Shown here: piece by piece, positions 33,639 to 47,419 of the stretch | Numbering within the stretch: position 1 is the stretch's first letter | How the letters are laid out: each line of letters opens with the position of its first letter | Made by a program: the position numbers and the translations under genes | The notes under the pieces: generated by a model | The model's input: the letters and a program-made list of their open reading frames with translations, nothing else | Told to the model about the DNA's origin: nothing | Databases searched by the model: none | Origin: Bacillota bacterium | GTDB taxonomy: Bacteria > Sysuimicrobiota > Sysuimicrobiia > Sysuimicrobiales > Segetimicrobiaceae | Direction: 5' to 3' | Length of the DNA stretch: 64,000 nt | Assembly: GCA_021324255.1 (NCBI GenBank) | Contig: JAJPJL010000068.1 | Location: forward strand, 62,001 to 126,000

Positions 33639-33652
33639 GTGGTACGTACCAC
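33639..33652. promoter_or_regulatory. 14-bp perfect palindrome GTGGTACGTACCAC, candidate GntR/HutC-family operator
   Basis: TGGT-N4-ACCA dyad at the 5' end of the GntR gene; flanked downstream by direct repeats TATGGACCACACGA / TATGGATCACACGA at about 33665 and 33683. Confidence 0.6.
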
Positions 33653-34517
33653 TTACGAAATCGGTATGGACCACACGACACATATGGATCACACGAACAG
33701 CCTGTCGATTCGGGCCACGCGCCGGCCGGGTGGGGACCGCGGGCGTCCGGGGCGCGCCGCCGCACATGCTCGGGAGGCGCCGCTCTACCGCCAACTGTTG
33801 ACCTCCCTCACCGCGGGAATCCGCCGGGGCGACTGGGAGGCTACGGGGCGCCTGCCCTCCGAGCGCGACCTCTCCCAGCAGTTTGGCGTGAGCCGCTCGA
33901 CCGTCCGCCAAGCCTTGGAGCAACTCTCCGCGTCCGGCCTGCTCAAGAAGGTCCAGGGGCGGGGCACGTTTGTCGCGTCGCGGGGCGCGATCACGCAACC
34001 GCTCGGCCGCGTGACGGCGTTTCGCGAGGCGCTCGCGGCGCAGGGCATCACGCCGGGGCTGCGCATCGTGAGCCGGACGCTGGAGCCGTGTGATGTCGTG
34101 CTGAGCCGTCTCCTCGGTGTGCCGCCGGCGTCGACGCTCCTGCTTCTGGTATGCCTCGGCCTCGGCGACGGCGAACCGCTCGCCATCTACCGCAGCTACT
34201 TTTCCGCCCCCAAGGTGGCCGGCGCCGTGGATGAGTTTTGCCGCGCCGTCGCGGCCGGCGCCTCGCCGCGTATGTTCTGCGATGCCTACGCGGAGCGCGC
34301 CGGGATGCACGAGTTGCGGGCGGAGCAAACGTTCGAGGCGCGCCTGGCGACCGTGGAGGAACGCGCATTGCTCGCCCTCGGCCGGCCGGCCGCGGTGTTC
34401 GATGTGACGTCGCTGGTCTCCACAACGCGGGGCGAGCCGCTGGAGTACCGCCGGGCCGTCTACCGCGGCGACTGGTACAAGTTCAACATCGAGCGGCTGG
34501 CGCACATCGGGCCGTAA
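33639..34517 (+). CDS. GntR (HutC-type) transcriptional regulator with UTRA domain
   Basis: APLYRQLLTSLTAGIRRGDWEATGRLPSERDLSQQFGVSRSTVRQALEQLSASGLLKKVQGRGTFVA; C-terminal YRRAVYRGDWYKFNIE. The true start may be 33666 or 33684. Confidence 0.9.
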   Translation: MVRTTYEIGMDHTTHMDHTNSLSIRATRRPGGDRGRPGRAAAHAREAPLYRQLLTSLTAGIRRGDWEATGRLPSERDLSQQFGVSRSTVRQALEQLSASGLLKKVQGRGTFVASRGAITQPLGRVTAFREALAAQGITPGLRIVSRTLEPCDVVLSRLLGVPPASTLLLLVCLGLGDGEPLAIYRSYFSAPKVAGAVDEFCRAVAAGASPRMFCDAYAERAGMHELRAEQTFEARLATVEERALLALGRPAAVFDVTSLVSTTRGEPLEYRRAVYRGDWYKFNIERLAHIGP

Positions 34518-34530
34518 CGGGAGGCGAATC

Positions 34531-35919
34531 GTGACGGGCAAGACGCTGCGCTTTCTGGTGCCGAACGGACACCTGGGGTTCGCGCCGCTGCAGCCCCGGA
34601 GCTTCGAGCTGGGGGTGGCGGCCCGGCCGGACTTCATCGTCTCGGACTCCGGCAGCGACGATATCGGGCCCGGCCCGCTGGGGTCGGACGCCTGCGCGAG
34701 CCCGCAGGAATGGCAGCGTCACGATCTGGAGCACATCTTGCTCGCGTGCCGCACGCTGGGCGTGCCGATGCTCATCGGCTCGGCGGGCGACACGGGAGCC
34801 AACAGCCGCGTGGATCTCTACGTCGAGATGATCCGGGAAATCGCGGCCCGTCACCGCCTTGCGCCGTTTCGCCTCGGGTATTTTTACTCCGAGGTCTCCC
34901 CGGAGCTGGTGCGTGAGCGCATCGAGGCCGGCGAGCGCGTGGCGGGATTGAACGGCCGCGCCGACCTGACCCTCGAGGATCTCGCGCGCACGGACCGGAT
35001 CGTCGCGCTGGCGGGAATCCACCCGTACAACACGCTGCTCGACATGGGCGCGGACGTCATCATCGGCGGCCGCAGCAGCGATCTCGCGATCTGCGCGGGG
35101 CCGGCCGTCCGCGCCGGCTTCCCGGACGCGCTGGCCTACTATCTCGGCAAGGTGCTGGAGTGCGCGTCGTTCTGCGCCGAGCCGTACGGCGCCAAGGAGA
35201 GCGTGATCGGCGAGATCTCCATGGAGGACGTCAAGGTGACGGCGATGCATCCCGACCAGCGCTGCACCGTCGCGTCCGTCGCGGCCCACGCCATGTACGA
35301 GCGCGCGACGCCCTTCGTCGAGCACGCGCTCGGCGGCGAGCTCGACATGCGGCACTGCCGGTACGAGCAGTTCGACCCGCGCACGACGCGCATCACGGGG
35401 CCGAAGTGGCGCCCCGCCGCCGAGCTCCGGGTCAAGCTCGAGGGCGCCGGCAAGGTCGGCGAGCGCTACATCGGGATCGCGGGCGTCCGCGATCCGTACA
35501 CCATCGCCAACATCGACCGGGTCATCGAATGGGCGCGCCGCGCCGTCGAAGCGCGGTGCGGCCGCACCGGCTACGAGCTGCACTATCAGGTCTTCGGCCG
35601 AAACGGCGTCATGGGCGATTTGGAGCCCGTGCGCACGCCGGCGCATGAGCTCGGGATCGTCGTGCACGGCGTGGCGCCGGACCGCGCGACGGCGGAAGAG
35701 GTGTGCATGATCGGGACGCGCCAGCTGTTCTATGCGCGGCTGCCCGACGTCAAGGGCACCGCCGGCGGCGTGGCGTTCCCCCTGGACGAGGTGGTGCGGG
35801 CGAGCGCCGCCTATCGCTGGACCGTGAACCACACGCTGCGCGTGCGCGATCCGCTGGAGCTGTTCCCGCTGCGTCTCGTCGACGTGGGAGCGCCGACGGA
35901 GACGGCGGGGCGTCGATGA
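34531..35919 (+). CDS. AtuA-like (acyclic terpene utilisation, DUF1446) family protein
   Basis: FIVSDSGSDDIGPGPLGSDACASPQEWQRHDLEHILLACRTLGVPMLIGSAGDTGAN; ALAGIHPYNTLLDMGADVIIGGRSSDLAICAGPAVRAGF. Confidence 0.85.
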   Translation: MTGKTLRFLVPNGHLGFAPLQPRSFELGVAARPDFIVSDSGSDDIGPGPLGSDACASPQEWQRHDLEHILLACRTLGVPMLIGSAGDTGANSRVDLYVEMIREIAARHRLAPFRLGYFYSEVSPELVRERIEAGERVAGLNGRADLTLEDLARTDRIVALAGIHPYNTLLDMGADVIIGGRSSDLAICAGPAVRAGFPDALAYYLGKVLECASFCAEPYGAKESVIGEISMEDVKVTAMHPDQRCTVASVAAHAMYERATPFVEHALGGELDMRHCRYEQFDPRTTRITGPKWRPAAELRVKLEGAGKVGERYIGIAGVRDPYTIANIDRVIEWARRAVEARCGRTGYELHYQVFGRNGVMGDLEPVRTPAHELGIVVHGVAPDRATAEEVCMIGTRQLFYARLPDVKGTAGGVAFPLDEVVRASAAYRWTVNHTLRVRDPLELFPLRLVDVGAPTETAGRR

Positions 35920-36239
35920 AGACCGCCAAGCTGGCGAGCCTGGCCAAGGTCGTGCGCAGCAAGAACGCGGGCGTGGACAAAATCACGTTCGACATCATCT
36001 TCGCGGACCGCGGCACGTACGAGCGGGCGGTGCGGAGCGGCGCGATCACGCGGGCCGCCGTCGCCCGTCTCTACGGGATCCCGGAGGCGCGGATCTCCGA
36101 TTTCGTCACGTTCGATCCCGCGTGCGCGATCAAGTTTACGCTGTACCGCGACCGGCCGAGCGGCAGCCCGGGCGACCCCGATATCTTTGGTGCGCAGCAA
36201 TACGCGCCGTTGCTCGACCTCGAGGTGCCGATCGATTGA
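35916..36239 (+). CDS. DUF4387 family protein
   Basis: KLASLAKVVRSKNAGVDKITFDIIFADRGTYERAVRSGAITRAAVARLYGI; ATGA overlap with the AtuA-like gene. Confidence 0.8.
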   Translation: MKTAKLASLAKVVRSKNAGVDKITFDIIFADRGTYERAVRSGAITRAAVARLYGIPEARISDFVTFDPACAIKFTLYRDRPSGSPGDPDIFGAQQYAPLLDLEVPID

Positions 36240-36304
36240 CCGCCGCGGGGCGGGCGGATGGCGGCGCCCGCGGGAGCCCGGCGGGACGCGATAGGAGGTG
36301 CGGG

Positions 36305-37822
36305 ATGAAGAAGCGGACCGACGTCGTCCTGGCGGCCGTGCTCATCGCGGCCTCGCTGCTCCTCGGCACGCGCACCGACGGCGCGCGCGCCCTCTCGTTC
36401 GTCCTGGACACCACGGCCAACCGGGCCACCGAGGCGCAGGCGATCACCGCGCAGCTGGGCCGCGCCGGGATCACGGCACAGGTGAGGGTCTGGCAGCTGT
36501 CGGCGCTGATCGCTCAGGTCCAGGCCGGCCAGCGGACCGCGTACACCACGGACTGGGGCAGCGCTTACTTCGATCCGTACGACCTGGCCGTGCCGAAGTT
36601 CGTGACCAAGGCCCGCGGCAACTTCTCCTTCTACTCGAATCCGATCGTGGACCGCGACATGGCCGTGGCCTCGAGCACGCCGAACGATGCGCAGCGCAAG
36701 GCGGCCTACGCGGATGCCCAGCGGCGCATCTACCAGGACGCGCCGTGGGCGTTCGGCTACGTGCTGCGGAACATCGAGGCGCAGGCATCCACGGTGTCCG
36801 GGTGGGTGCCCGCGGCCGACAACAGCGAGACGATGTACCCGGCCGGCGTGCGGGGCGGCGACACGGTGGTTGTGGGGCTGCGCAACGACTCGATTGCGCC
36901 GCTCGATCCGGGCATCCCGCCGACCGACCGGGAAGCGGTGCTTCGGAACATCTACGACGCGCTGGTCGGGCACACTCCGGACGGCAAGGTCGTGCCGCAG
37001 CTCGCGACGTCGTGGCGCAAGGTCGGCCCGGCCGTGTACGACTTCACGCTGCGGAGCGGCGTCCGATTCCAAAACGGCGACCCGCTCACCGCGGACGACG
37101 TCGTCTTCACGTTCGAGCGCGTGTTGACCCCCGGCGGCATCAGCGGCGTGTCGAGCACCCGCAAGGACCTGCTGGGGCCGATCCTCCGCGTGCAAAAGCT
37201 GGACCCGTCCCACGTACGCTTCGTCTACAGCGCGTCCTTTCCGGAAGCGCTGGTGCTCCAGTCGCTCGTGCACTTCCAGATCGTGCCGCAGAAGTACGTG
37301 CAGCAGGCGGGCGAGCAGGGGTTCATCGCCAAACCCGTCGGGGCGGGCCCATTTCGCTACGTGCGCGGCGCCCTCAACTCGGAGGTCGTGCTGGAGCGCT
37401 ACGACGGCTACTGGGCCGGACCGGCGAAGCTGCGCCAGGTGGTCTTCCGGATGATGCCGGACCCGTCCAGCCGGATCGCCGCGCTCCTCTCCGGCGAGGT
37501 CCAGGTCATCCAGGAGGTGCCGCCGGATCTCGTGGACCGCCTCCGGGCGAGCCCGAACGTCGAGGTGAAAACCGCGGAGGGCACGCGATCCTACGAAATC
37601 GAGTTCAACACCAAGGCCGCCCCGTTCGACGATCCGCGCGTGCGGCAGGCGGTCAACTACGCGATCAACTGGGATCCGATTCTCCGCGATATCTACCACG
37701 GCTATGCGACGCGGCTGAGCACGGCGTTCCTGCCGAACGGCTTCGGATACGATCCGACCCTGAAGCCGTATCCGTACGATCCCGCCAAGGCGCGGGCGCT
37801 TCTCCAGGACGCGGGGTACTGA
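36305..37822 (+). CDS. Family-5 ABC substrate-binding protein with apparent circular permutation
   Basis: Signal peptide MKKRTDVVLAAVLIAASLLLGTRTDGARA, then the C-terminal SBP block (LSFVLDTTANRATEAQAITAQLGRAGI...YSNPIVDRDMAVAS...DAPWAFGYVLRNIEAQASTVSGWVPAADN), then the N-terminal SBP block (GGDTVVVGLRNDSIAPLDP...VPQLATSW...YDFTLRSGVRFQNGDPLTADDVVFTFERVL...PVGAGPFRYVRG...YPYDPAKARALLQDAGY-stop). RBS AGGAGG upstream. Confidence 0.9.
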   Translation: MKKRTDVVLAAVLIAASLLLGTRTDGARALSFVLDTTANRATEAQAITAQLGRAGITAQVRVWQLSALIAQVQAGQRTAYTTDWGSAYFDPYDLAVPKFVTKARGNFSFYSNPIVDRDMAVASSTPNDAQRKAAYADAQRRIYQDAPWAFGYVLRNIEAQASTVSGWVPAADNSETMYPAGVRGGDTVVVGLRNDSIAPLDPGIPPTDREAVLRNIYDALVGHTPDGKVVPQLATSWRKVGPAVYDFTLRSGVRFQNGDPLTADDVVFTFERVLTPGGISGVSSTRKDLLGPILRVQKLDPSHVRFVYSASFPEALVLQSLVHFQIVPQKYVQQAGEQGFIAKPVGAGPFRYVRGALNSEVVLERYDGYWAGPAKLRQVVFRMMPDPSSRIAALLSGEVQVIQEVPPDLVDRLRASPNVEVKTAEGTRSYEIEFNTKAAPFDDPRVRQAVNYAINWDPILRDIYHGYATRLSTAFLPNGFGYDPTLKPYPYDPAKARALLQDAGY

Positions 37823-37832
37823 GGCGCCGGCG

Positions 37833-38843
37833 ATGCGCTCGCTGCGGATCGCGCATCGGGTCATCCTGGCGGTGCCGGTGGCGCTCGGCGTGGCGGTCCT
37901 GGCGTTCTTTTCGCTGCACCTGCTCCCCGGCGACCCCGTGCAGATCATGCTCGGCGACACCGACGCCAGCGCGGCGACGATCCGCGCGGTCCAGCACGAG
38001 TTGCACCTCGACCGGCCCCTCCACGTGCAGCTCGCGCTGTTCTTCGCCCAGCTCGCGCGCGGGGACCTCGGCACGTCGATCGTCCAGCGCCGCCCCGTGG
38101 CGGCGCTCATCGGCGACGCCCTGCCGGCCACGATCGAGCTGACCGCGGCGGCCCTCGTGATCGCGATCGTGATTGCCGTGCCGATGGGTCTCGCGGGGGC
38201 GCTTCGGCCGCGCTCGTGGTTCGATCGCGCGGTCCTGTCCACGTCGCTGCTCGGCGCGAGCATGCCGGCGTTCTGGTTCGGGCTGTTGCTGATCCTGTTC
38301 GTGGCGGTCGACGCGCGCCTCTTGCCGACGTCCGGGCAGATCGACCCGACCATCGCCGTGCCGCGGGTGACCGGGTTTGTGCTGATCGACGGCGTCCTGG
38401 CCCGCAACGCCGCGGCGGTGGGGAGCGCGCTGCGCCACCTCGTGCTGCCGGCGCTGACCCTGGGCGTGGTCGTCGCCGCGGTCCTCGCACGCACCGTCCG
38501 CGCCTCCATGATCGAGGTGCTGCAGCGCCGGTACGTCACCACGGCGCGGGCCAAAGGCCTGCCCGAGACGGCCGTCGTGGTCAAACATGCGCTGCGCAAC
38601 GCGCTGATCCCGGCGCTCACGGTCATCGGGTTGCAGATCGGGGAGTTGCTGGGAGGCAACATGATCGTGGAGACGGTGTTTGCCTGGCCCGGCCTCGGCC
38701 GGCTCGTCGTCAACTCGATCTTCGCCCGGGACTACCTCGTGGTGCAGGCGGCCGTGATGCTCTACGCCGTGACGTACGTGGCCGCGAACTTGGCGGTCGA
38801 CGTAGCGTACACCATGCTCGACCCGCAGGTGGAAGCGACATGA
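37833..38843 (+). CDS. ABC transporter permease, DppB/OppB type
   Basis: FFSLHLLPGDPVQIMLGDTDASAATIRAVQHELHLDRPLHVQ; YVTTARAKGLPETAVVVKHALRNALIPALTVIGLQIGELLGGNMIVETVF. Confidence 0.95.
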   Translation: MRSLRIAHRVILAVPVALGVAVLAFFSLHLLPGDPVQIMLGDTDASAATIRAVQHELHLDRPLHVQLALFFAQLARGDLGTSIVQRRPVAALIGDALPATIELTAAALVIAIVIAVPMGLAGALRPRSWFDRAVLSTSLLGASMPAFWFGLLLILFVAVDARLLPTSGQIDPTIAVPRVTGFVLIDGVLARNAAAVGSALRHLVLPALTLGVVVAAVLARTVRASMIEVLQRRYVTTARAKGLPETAVVVKHALRNALIPALTVIGLQIGELLGGNMIVETVFAWPGLGRLVVNSIFARDYLVVQAAVMLYAVTYVAANLAVDVAYTMLDPQVEAT

Positions 38844-39763
38844 TGCCGGCCGGCGCGCAATCCGTCCGCGCCGGCCCGGCGCCGTTTCTGTATCCTGTCC
38901 GGCGGCACGGGGTCCGCGCTCTCGGATCACTCCGCCGGGTCGCGGCCCGGCTCGCGGCGGAGCCGGTCGGGGCCGCCGCGGCCGCGGCGGTCCTGGCCTA
39001 TGTTGCGGGCGCCGTGCTCGCGCCGGTGCTCGCCCCGGACAACCCGTCGGCGACCGATCTCGGCGCCCGCCTCGCCGCGCCGTCGGCGGCCCACTGGTTC
39101 GGCACGGACCTCTTGGGCCGCGACATCTTCTCCCGCACGCTCTACGGGGCGCGCGTGAGCTTGCTGGTCGGTGCGCTCACCGTCGGGCTGTCGGCGCTCA
39201 TCGGGACGGCGCTCGGCATGGCGGGGGCCTATTACCGGGGCGCCGTCGATCTGGTCGGCGCGCGGGCGGTCGAGCTGTTGCAGGCGTTCCCGTACCTCAT
39301 CTTCGCCGTGGCCATGATGGCGTTTCTCGGCCCTGGCTTCTGGAACCTGATCTGGGCGCTCGCGCTCAAGGGCTGGATCGAATTCTACCGGCTGGCCCGC
39401 GGCGAGACGCTCACGCAGTCGCACCGCGAGTACGTCGAGGCGGCCCGCGCGATGGGCTATCCGAGCTCGTGGATCCTCGTGAGCGAGATCCTGCCCAACA
39501 TCCTGAACACCGTGACGGTCGTGGCGCTCCTCCGTCTCGGCTATTTCATGGTGCTCGAAGCGTCGCTGTCGTTTCTCGGCGTCGGCATCCCGCCGAGCAT
39601 CCCGGCCTGGGGCTCGATGATCAACGACGGCCGCAACGTCCTCTTCGTCGCCTGGTGGGTGAGCACGATCCCGGGGCTCGCGCTGCTCGTCCTGGTCCTC
39701 GCCGTCAATCTCCTCGGCGACCGCGTGCGCGAGATCCTGGATCCCCACGCCTCGCGCCGGTAG
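38840..39763 (+). CDS. ABC transporter permease, DppC/OppC type
   Basis: ATGATG overlap start; HWFGTDLLGRDIFSRTLYGARVSLLVG; ASLSFLGVGIPPSIPAWGSMINDGR. Confidence 0.95.
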   Translation: MMPAGAQSVRAGPAPFLYPVRRHGVRALGSLRRVAARLAAEPVGAAAAAAVLAYVAGAVLAPVLAPDNPSATDLGARLAAPSAAHWFGTDLLGRDIFSRTLYGARVSLLVGALTVGLSALIGTALGMAGAYYRGAVDLVGARAVELLQAFPYLIFAVAMMAFLGPGFWNLIWALALKGWIEFYRLARGETLTQSHREYVEAARAMGYPSSWILVSEILPNILNTVTVVALLRLGYFMVLEASLSFLGVGIPPSIPAWGSMINDGRNVLFVAWWVSTIPGLALLVLVLAVNLLGDRVREILDPHASRR

Positions 39764-44519: not shown

Positions 44520-45542
44520 GTGGCTGTGGCGGGCACCGGGATCAAGAGATTCTTGCCGCCGACACTTCGCGACGTGGCCCGCCGCGCGGCCGTTTCGCCC
44601 GCGACCGCCTCTCGTGTGCTCAATGGATCGACCACGGTGTCACCGGCGATCCGGCAGCGTGTCGAGGAGGCGATCCGCGCGGTCGGATACACGCCCAACC
44701 GCGTCGCGACGAGCCTGCGACGTCAGTCCACGCAAACGGTCAGCCTCCTCGTTCCGGACATCACGAACCCGTTTTTTGCAGACGTCGCGCGGGCGGCCGG
44801 GCGGGCCTTTCGGCGGGCTGGATATTCGTGCTTGCTCTGCGACACCGGGGGCGACGTCGCGACCGAAGAGCGCGACGCCGTGCTCTGTCTGCACCACCGC
44901 GTCGATGGGATGTTCGTCATCTCAAACAGCGGCGCGCCGCGGTTCTTCGAGAAGCTCGGACGCCAGGGTCAGGCGATCGTGCTGGTCGATCGGCCGGCGA
45001 GCGACGAGCTGGATTCTGTTCGAGTCGACAACGCGGACGGCACGCTTCAAGCAGTTGCACATCTGGCCGCGCGCGGCCGCAGGCGGCTGGCGATCATCAG
45101 CGGGCCGCTTACGCTCCTGCCCGCCCGGGAACGGTTCGATGCGTTCCGTGCGGGTTTAGACCTTTACAACCTCCGGCGCATCGACCCGTACCTTCATGCC
45201 ACAGGATTCTCCGTGGCCCACGGGTATGCGGCGGCTCGCCACCTCTTGAGCCTGGACCCGCCGCCGGATGCCATCTTCGCCGGCAACAACACGCTTGGGA
45301 TCGGGGCGATTCGCGCCATCAAAGAGCGCGGATGCCGCATCCCGGATGATGTCGCCGTCATCATGTTCGACGACGTGTATCTCGCGGAGTCGCTCGAGCC
45401 ACCCATCACCGTCATCGCCCAACCGACCGGTCAGATTGGCACCGTGGCGGCCCAGTTGCTGCTGGGGCGCTTCAACGAGCCGAATCGGCCGCCCAAGGAG
45501 ATCTTGCTCAAACCGCAACTGGTCGTGCGGAGGTCCACCTGA
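44520..45542 (+). CDS. LacI family transcriptional regulator
   Basis: PTLRDVARRAAVSPATASRVLNGSTTVSPAIRQRVEEAIRAVGYTPNRVATSLRRQ; VSLLVPDITNPFFADVARAAGRAF. Confidence 0.95.
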   Translation: MAVAGTGIKRFLPPTLRDVARRAAVSPATASRVLNGSTTVSPAIRQRVEEAIRAVGYTPNRVATSLRRQSTQTVSLLVPDITNPFFADVARAAGRAFRRAGYSCLLCDTGGDVATEERDAVLCLHHRVDGMFVISNSGAPRFFEKLGRQGQAIVLVDRPASDELDSVRVDNADGTLQAVAHLAARGRRRLAIISGPLTLLPARERFDAFRAGLDLYNLRRIDPYLHATGFSVAHGYAAARHLLSLDPPPDAIFAGNNTLGIGAIRAIKERGCRIPDDVAVIMFDDVYLAESLEPPITVIAQPTGQIGTVAAQLLLGRFNEPNRPPKEILLKPQLVVRRST

Positions 45543-45646
45543 CCGTGGGCGCCGCACGGAGAAGGGGCACCGTCGAATCGCACGGGATCCGATCGCGAGA
45601 TGACCGTCACCGGCGAACCGCGACCAGACGTCGAGGAGGTGCGGAG

Positions 45647-47419
45647 ATGCGTAGAGGCCTTTCCCAATCCGCCGCGTTCTTAGGGTTGTGCGCGCTGATC
45701 GCTCTCGCTGTTACCGCGACGACCTTTGCTCAACCCATGAAGAATCCGGGCTCGTTGGTCATCGTCCGGATCAATTCGCCGGACAGCCTGGACCCGGCGT
45801 GGGCCGACGACATCTACAGCCGCGAGCCGGTCGCCTACATGATGTACGAGCCTCTCATCTTTTTCGACGGCGGCTCGACGAGCCGCTACGTGCCGATGCT
45901 GGCGACGAATGTGCCGTCCGTGCACGAGGGCACGATCTCCAAGGATCTCCGCACCTACACGTTCCACATCCGGCAGGGTGTCCGGTTCCACGACGGCTCC
46001 ATGATGACGCCTGCCGACGTCAAGTACTCGATTATGCGGTTCGCCTTGGTCGACCGGGACAGCGGTGGGTCGTGGATAGTCCTCACGCCGCTGACGGGGC
46101 GCGACGGCACGCGCGATGCCAGCGGCAAGCTCATCCCAACGGTCTTCGACGAGATGGACCGGGCAATTCAAGTGAAGGGCAACGACGTCATATTCACCCT
46201 CAAGGAGCCCTACAGCGGCTTCCTGTCCATCATGGCGTCGTTTTCGCTCGTGCATTCGAAAGCGGCGGTCGTTCGTGCGGGCGGTTGGGACGGGACTCGA
46301 GTCACGCTCGCCAAGTACAACAACCCTGCAGCCCCGGATAAGATGGAGCTCTTTCAGCAGGACGCGGGTACCGGTCCCTTCCGTCTTACCAGCTGGAACC
46401 GGTCGATCAACCAGATTGTGCTCGAACGGTGGGACGGCTACTGGCGCGCGCCGGCGAAGCTCAGGCAGTTGGTGTTCAAAGTCGCCGAGGATTTTCCGGC
46501 GCGCCGGCTGATGCTCACGACGGGCGACGCGGACATTATCGAGGCGGGGTACGCCGACCTTCCCTCGCTTCGCGGCGCGAGCGATGTGCGCATCGTTGAG
46601 AACGTCCCGCAACTCTTTACGCAGTCGTTTTTCATGAACATGAAGATCAATCCCGAGGCGAACCCCGATGTCGGAAGCGGCAAGCTCGACGGCAGCGGCA
46701 TCCCGCCGGACTTTTTCGCCGACATCCACGTGCGGCGGGCCATCGCGTACGCGTTCGACTACGCCACGTATTGGAGCACGGCGTGGAACGGGAAGATGGT
46801 CCCCGGGAATGGGCCGGTGCCGGCTGGCCTGCTGGGCTACGATGTACGCAACCCCTGGTACCGGACGAACCGGGACAAGGCCGTCGCGGAGTTCAAGGAG
46901 GCTCGGGGCGGCCAGGTGTGGGAACGCGGATTTACGTTTACCGAGACGTTCAACGCGGGGAATCCTCACCGGACGATCGGGACGCGGATCCTCAAGCAGA
47001 ATCTCGAGTCCCTCAATCCCAAGTTCCACGTCAACATCCGATCGCTGCCGGGTCCGAGTTACTTCCCCAACATCTCGGCGCATAAGGGCACGCTGTATTG
47101 GCTGGGATTCGCCGTGGACTTCGCGGACCCCGACGACTTCGTGGCCGCATACATGCATACCGGCACCAATTACGCTCCGCAATACGGGTACTCCAACCCG
47201 GCGCTCGACAAACTCATCGAGCAGGCCCGTACGGAGACGACCGAGACCAAGCGCGCCGTCCTGTACCGGCAGATTCAAAGGATTGCCTACGACGACGTCC
47301 CCGTCGTGTATCTCGGCTACGGGACCGTGCCGGTCGTCTACCGAACCTGGGTTCACGGATGGTACACCAACCCGATGTTCGCGCTGCAGTGGTACTACTA
47401 CCCCATCACCAAGCAGTAG
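45647..47419 (+). CDS. ABC transporter substrate-binding protein, family 5 (canonical order)
   Basis: MRRGLSQSAAFLGLCALIALAVTATTFAQ signal; LRTYTFHIRQGVRFHDGSMMTPADVKYSIMRF; GYSNPALDKLIEQARTETTETKRAVLYRQIQ. Confidence 0.9.
   Translation: MRRGLSQSAAFLGLCALIALAVTATTFAQPMKNPGSLVIVRINSPDSLDPAWADDIYSREPVAYMMYEPLIFFDGGSTSRYVPMLATNVPSVHEGTISKDLRTYTFHIRQGVRFHDGSMMTPADVKYSIMRFALVDRDSGGSWIVLTPLTGRDGTRDASGKLIPTVFDEMDRAIQVKGNDVIFTLKEPYSGFLSIMASFSLVHSKAAVVRAGGWDGTRVTLAKYNNPAAPDKMELFQQDAGTGPFRLTSWNRSINQIVLERWDGYWRAPAKLRQLVFKVAEDFPARRLMLTTGDADIIEAGYADLPSLRGASDVRIVENVPQLFTQSFFMNMKINPEANPDVGSGKLDGSGIPPDFFADIHVRRAIAYAFDYATYWSTAWNGKMVPGNGPVPAGLLGYDVRNPWYRTNRDKAVAEFKEARGGQVWERGFTFTETFNAGNPHRTIGTRILKQNLESLNPKFHVNIRSLPGPSYFPNISAHKGTLYWLGFAVDFADPDDFVAAYMHTGTNYAPQYGYSNPALDKLIEQARTETTETKRAVLYRQIQRIAYDDVPVVYLGYGTVPVVYRTWVHGWYTNPMFALQWYYYPITKQ

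Follow-up and report, generated by a model that had tools for sequence, protein, structure and literature searches.

One ORF of the window, i.e. the whole 64,000 nt stretch of DNA analysed here, encodes what is in all probability a functional, natural, circularly permuted substrate-binding protein (SBP) of family 5 (SBP_bac_5, cluster C), a member of an ancient lineage with one origin; that it binds a ligand and delivers it to an importer is inferred. This reading rests jointly on the order of the sequence blocks, the seams between them, the persistence of this arrangement in three phylum-level groups, the grouping of the permuted sequences in a single clade, purifying selection, and the permease partners. 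The relevant features are given in Table 1.

The family's canonical order, N-terminal part (N-part) followed by C-terminal part (C-part), is reversed in this ORF. SBP_bac_5 (PF00496) is the sole Pfam match of the protein, with residues 228–505 aligned to profile positions 1–278 (278 bits, cut-off 32.4), and the first part, when searched alone, matches further along the same profile (residues 31–97 to positions 292–359). The solved chain 5u4o was also matched in reversed order by phmmer (residues 181–505 to 39–359, and 41–166 to 376–504), whereas the canonical relative L083, used as a control, matches 5u4o in a single unbroken stretch. BLASTP against L083 placed window residues 185–504 on 57–383 (50% identity, E 5e-119) and residues 26–178 on 383–535 (46% identity, E 2e-43), two matches that adjoin each other without overlap or loss. 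The score of the first part against L083 was 350, compared with a maximum of 48 for shuffled sequences, which places it 69 standard deviations above the shuffles. Other SBPs of the window that match both parts do so in N–C order. The ORF is a clean circular permutation from which nothing has been lost, a topological variant that by sequence is still SBP_bac_5. None of the NCBIfam equivalogs DppA, NikA, GsiB, OppA and SapA was reached, the best being GsiB (161 bits, cut-off 594). An initial annotation, made from sequence alone, had proposed the coordinates of the ORF, the reversed order without loss, the canonical order of the other SBPs in the window, and the presence of a ribosome binding site and adjacent permeases, and all of these held (the third for SBPs that match both parts). 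It had also offered as a test the correspondence of residues 30–178 to the C-terminal part of the family, on which profile and pairwise alignments agree.

In canonical relatives the C-terminal end reads ...PSMDSRENMHRVKL and the mature protein starts with GGTIVIALNK; in permuted relatives the two run together without a gap (...PAMDSRINLHDVGLTRGDTIVVGMK), and the window seam reads PAADNSETMYPAGVRGGDTVVVGLRN. Comparison of the seams showed that their position is identical among the permuted relatives. The segment ETMYPAGVRGG, initially annotated as a short linker, is not a new insert and consists of the old C-terminal tail and the old mature N-terminus. The new N-terminus (LxFxLD) lies right behind the signal, and in most standalone permuted copies the new C-terminus is AGY plus 0–3 more residues. 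As expected of an export signal, the hydrophobic N-terminus, read by eye, ends in ARA ahead of residue 30; relatives have either a signal peptide or a lipobox ahead of the same site, lipobox-like motifs being present in several. General knowledge of the family suggests that domain II of DppA-type folds contains the cut and domain I the canonical termini. Residues R383 and D436 bind ligand in DppA (PMC12136057), and by their position, after residue 340 of the DppA chain, both belong to the block that has moved to the front here.

Table 1. Features of the permuted SBP locus in the window, and of two fusion genes in other genomes
Feature	Location (nt)	Strand	Remarks
GntR/UTRA regulator	33639..34517	+	PF00392, PF07702; conserved neighbour
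AtuA-family protein	34531..35919	+	PF07287; conserved neighbour
DUF4387 protein	35916..36239	+	PF14330, E 1e-34; conserved neighbour
AGGAGGT RBS-like box	36293..36299	+	5 nt ahead of ATG; read from sequence
Permuted SBP ORF	36305-37822	+	505 aa; followed directly by DppB, then DppC
Signal peptide, residues 1-29	36305..36391	+	Likely cleavage after ARA; read by eye
SBP C-terminal part, placed first, residues 30-178	36392..36838	+	46% identity to L083 383-535; half-profile and Pfam matches
Fusion seam, residues 179-184	36839..36856	+	Old C-terminal tail and old mature N-terminus; from comparing the seam in permuted and canonical relatives
SBP N-terminal part, placed second, residues 185-505	36857..37819	+	Ends ...ALLQDAGY, at the inter-block EAGY motif; 50% identity to L083 57-383; Pfam
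DppB/OppB-type permease	37833..38843	+	BPD_transp_1; next to the permuted SBP in every standalone permuted neighbourhood examined
DppC/OppC-type permease, start inferred	38843..39763	+	BPD_transp_1, OppC_N; conserved neighbour
Permuted SBP_bac_5-hybrid histidine kinase fusion	L057:2517-7826	-	Permuted SBP N-terminal; Response_reg
Permuted SBP_bac_5-hybrid histidine kinase fusion	L058:6609-12074	+	Permuted SBP N-terminal; Response_reg

Counting the window's own, 38 genomes, spread over three phylum-level groups, have the permuted order; in 28 of these it was checked on extracted ORFs, the other ten each having one collinear profile match. Within the window's phylum (43 genomes searched, all of one order), nine genomes, again counting the window's own, carry full-length or near-full-length collinear relatives, four in family f1 and five in family f6, the others being at 46–87% identity, and a profile search of this phylum gave the same set of carriers. 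The second group comprises four genomes (G043, G398, G620 and G682), of which G043 is a MAG titled Deltaproteobacteria, and the third consists of 25 of the 398 genomes of a Bacillota sample. Genome-sized single contigs bear the permuted gene in G682 (6.9 Mb), G1411, G1594, G1229, G1569 and G1314, and several Bacillota copies are on contigs of 2.5–3.6 Mb. The order in close relatives at this locus had been named at the outset as a possible refutation; relatives in independent assemblies are permuted too, and the claim held. No permuted member scored above threshold in a sample of 399 Pseudomonadota genomes, no permuted form was found in the plasmid collection searched, and no permuted chain was among the sequence matches in the PDB. 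A contig pattern scan likewise returned no permuted relative, yet G043, the genome of L019, later proved to be a carrier.

The neighbourhood GntR/UTRA – AtuA – DUF4387 – SBP – DppB – DppC recurs among the genomes, and the window SBP is accompanied by the DppB/DppC partner permeases expected of the family. Elsewhere the operon also includes a Peptidase_C26 gene and genes for two ATPases. In the window no ATPase gene adjoins the operon, and an M20 peptidase gene, on the opposite strand, comes next. A small peptide or a gamma-glutamyl-type amide is the probable ligand, an inference drawn only from the neighbouring M20 and C26 hydrolase genes, and no ligand is known.

Several further observations concern these loci. 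Peptidase_C26 (gamma-glutamyl hydrolase-like) genes occur in both permuted and canonical operons (L038–L041, L055, L056, L077, L079, L092, L087, L091). Loci L043 and L044 represent a second operon, SBP–DppB–DppC–AtuA–DUF4387, with an SBP in canonical order, and in G016 this operon occurs together with the permuted one. The window genome (G000, 3.7 Mb) has an unusually rich set of family-5 SBPs, with roughly 75 matching loci, and elsewhere in the window an SBP open frame of 689 aa (nt 45350–47416) has its N-part match interrupted by about 100 residues.

In G620 and G682 the permuted SBP forms part of single ORFs of 1770 and 1822 aa, in which it is followed by three SBP_bac_3 domains, a membrane segment, HisKA, HATPase_c and a receiver domain. 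To judge from this architecture, the permuted SBP also serves as the sensory head of hybrid histidine kinases in these two genomes.

A single ancient event is the probable source of the permuted lineage, because all 26 permuted sequences in the N-part tree cluster among canonical proteins, as one clade with a support of 100/98. The nearest canonical sets in this tree are L082–L085 (Bacillota sample) and L017/L018 (window's phylum), with an unresolved branching order. The C-part alignment is short (147 columns) and resolves weakly; the tree of all rows was unresolved and did not place the permuted rows together (2 changes), and with the long-branch rows left out the permuted rows fell on one side (94/95). 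Of the canonical rows in the comparison, L082–L085 have the highest identity to both parts. In the permease tree the subgroups match those of the SBPs, for example the window's family with G043/G398 (100/99), and the partner permeases of the permuted SBPs do not form one clade. Canonical and permuted genes alike adjoin dppB and dppC. The simplest history that can be inferred runs in three steps: a canonical SBP gene next to dppB would have been duplicated in tandem at its own site, the two copies would have fused, joining the old C-terminal tail to the old mature N-terminus, and the outer halves (the N-part of the first copy and the C-part of the second) would then have been lost, with retention of the signal peptide. 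None of the loci read showed a duplicated intermediate.

Among the four f1 copies dN/dS is 0.06–0.15, in the C-part and N-part alike, and the permuted gene is under purifying selection. Two relatives have irregular reading frames: the permuted SBP of G037 (L042:4378-6164) is split across two frames close to its end, and that at L067:1441-3045 has one in-frame TAG in the C-part, either a nonsense mutation or a sequence error.

The permuted chain would still be expected to close into a two-lobed Venus-flytrap binder that would pass its ligand on to the neighbouring DppBC permease, with the termini and the signal or lipid anchor leaving from the lobe of the cut site instead of that of the canonical termini. 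All of this is inferred, without a confident model or binding data. The two models made with AlphaFold2 have pLDDT values of 69 and 66 (pTM 0.56 and 0.50), and are weak because the alignments used, made of window proteins and L019–L024 only, with subsets chosen that align the C fragments correctly, took in only distant relatives of canonical order. Prediction of a complete two-lobed fold had been a further test put forward in the initial annotation, and the better model (pLDDT 69, pTM 0.56) is subject to this same restriction. Foldseek searches with the model returned only family-5 SBPs (E down to 8e-24), but the matches span no more than about 340 columns, with an rmsd near 9 Å. Being of medium confidence, the models are not evidence; the result fits family 5 yet says nothing on a closed fold.

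An assembly artefact, in which similar SBP genes, numerous in this genome, were wrongly joined and the order thereby shuffled, has in its favour that the window genome, with its dozens of family-5 SBP loci, was assembled into 142 contigs. It is rejected, and can be regarded as practically ruled out, because the permuted order is seen in independent assemblies and on genome-sized contigs; 37 other genomes share the identical order and seams, several of them on single contigs of genome size. Nor is there much room left for a decaying gene without function, despite the frameshift in the L042 relative and the in-frame TAG in that of L067, since the dN/dS values speak against it; in addition, the ORF is intact in nearly all genomes and the operon has been retained.

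A hybrid origin, with C-part and N-part taken from two different SBP genes, would make the protein a domain-shuffled fusion and not the permutation of one gene. The separation of the permuted rows in the all-row C-part tree is compatible with this, given how weakly 147 columns resolve, but the tree without long branches unites them and both parts are nearest in identity to one canonical group, L082–L085, so that a hybrid seems highly improbable. Much the same can be said of a chain that cannot close on itself and acts only as a domain-swapped dimer or a partly opened binder. The C-part and seam have low confidence in the models, which would allow for it; however, no fold element is missing, the seam retains the full old tail as a linker, and the analogous permuted protein TpMglB-2 is reported to be monomeric and to bind glucose (PMC4990184). 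A functional permuted binder of single origin remains the preferred reading. A bolder version is doubtful: that chain topology is itself the selected trait, the permutation having been kept because it shifts the membrane or signal anchor and the free C-terminus to the other lobe, a shift that changes how the protein docks to DppBC and has allowed it to head multi-domain histidine kinases as an N-terminal sensor.

As far as could be searched, the permuted family-5 lineage is real, widespread, apparently of single origin, and previously unremarked: the literature searched, which left most subscription papers outside, contained no report of a permutation in family 5, OppA or DppA, in agreement with the initial annotation, the known case of TpMglB-2 belonging to an unrelated cluster. 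A natural permutation of single origin in one of the largest families of binding proteins, with canonical relatives of about 60% identity available for comparison and contigs of genome size to draw on, makes the role of topology in folding, export, lobe anchoring and docking to ABC importers testable, and provides a natural scaffold with relocated termini for biosensor design. It also carries a warning, as annotation that depends on order (single-stretch profiles, Foldseek) covers only about two-thirds of the length of such proteins.

The window protein shares with DppA, OppA, GsiB, HbpA and 5u4o (cluster C) the sequence family, the full set of blocks, a signal peptide and DppBC-type permeases, but differs from them in having the C-part ahead of the N-part, with its termini inside what is usually mid-chain. 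The canonical proteins L082–L085 of the Bacillota sample are about 60–62% (N-part) and 52–56% (C-part) identical to the permuted L073 and L077, and occupy the same place in the operon, ahead of dppBC and two ATPases; they differ in their canonical order and in the lipobox-type signal ahead of the N-part. TpMglB-2 (Tp0684) of cluster B ('Cluster Bc') is likewise a natural circular permutation, and a conformational change of this glucose-binding protein has been described (PMC4990184). Both are natural permutations of ABC binding proteins that characterize a whole lineage and have both termini in one lobe. TpMglB-2, however, belongs to the unrelated cluster B, binds sugar, and has a smaller fold and another cut site, and the window protein does not have a cluster-B (type I) sugar-binding sequence. 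Compared with TpMglB-2, the permuted family-5 form is traced by trees to what was probably one event, beside close canonical relatives.
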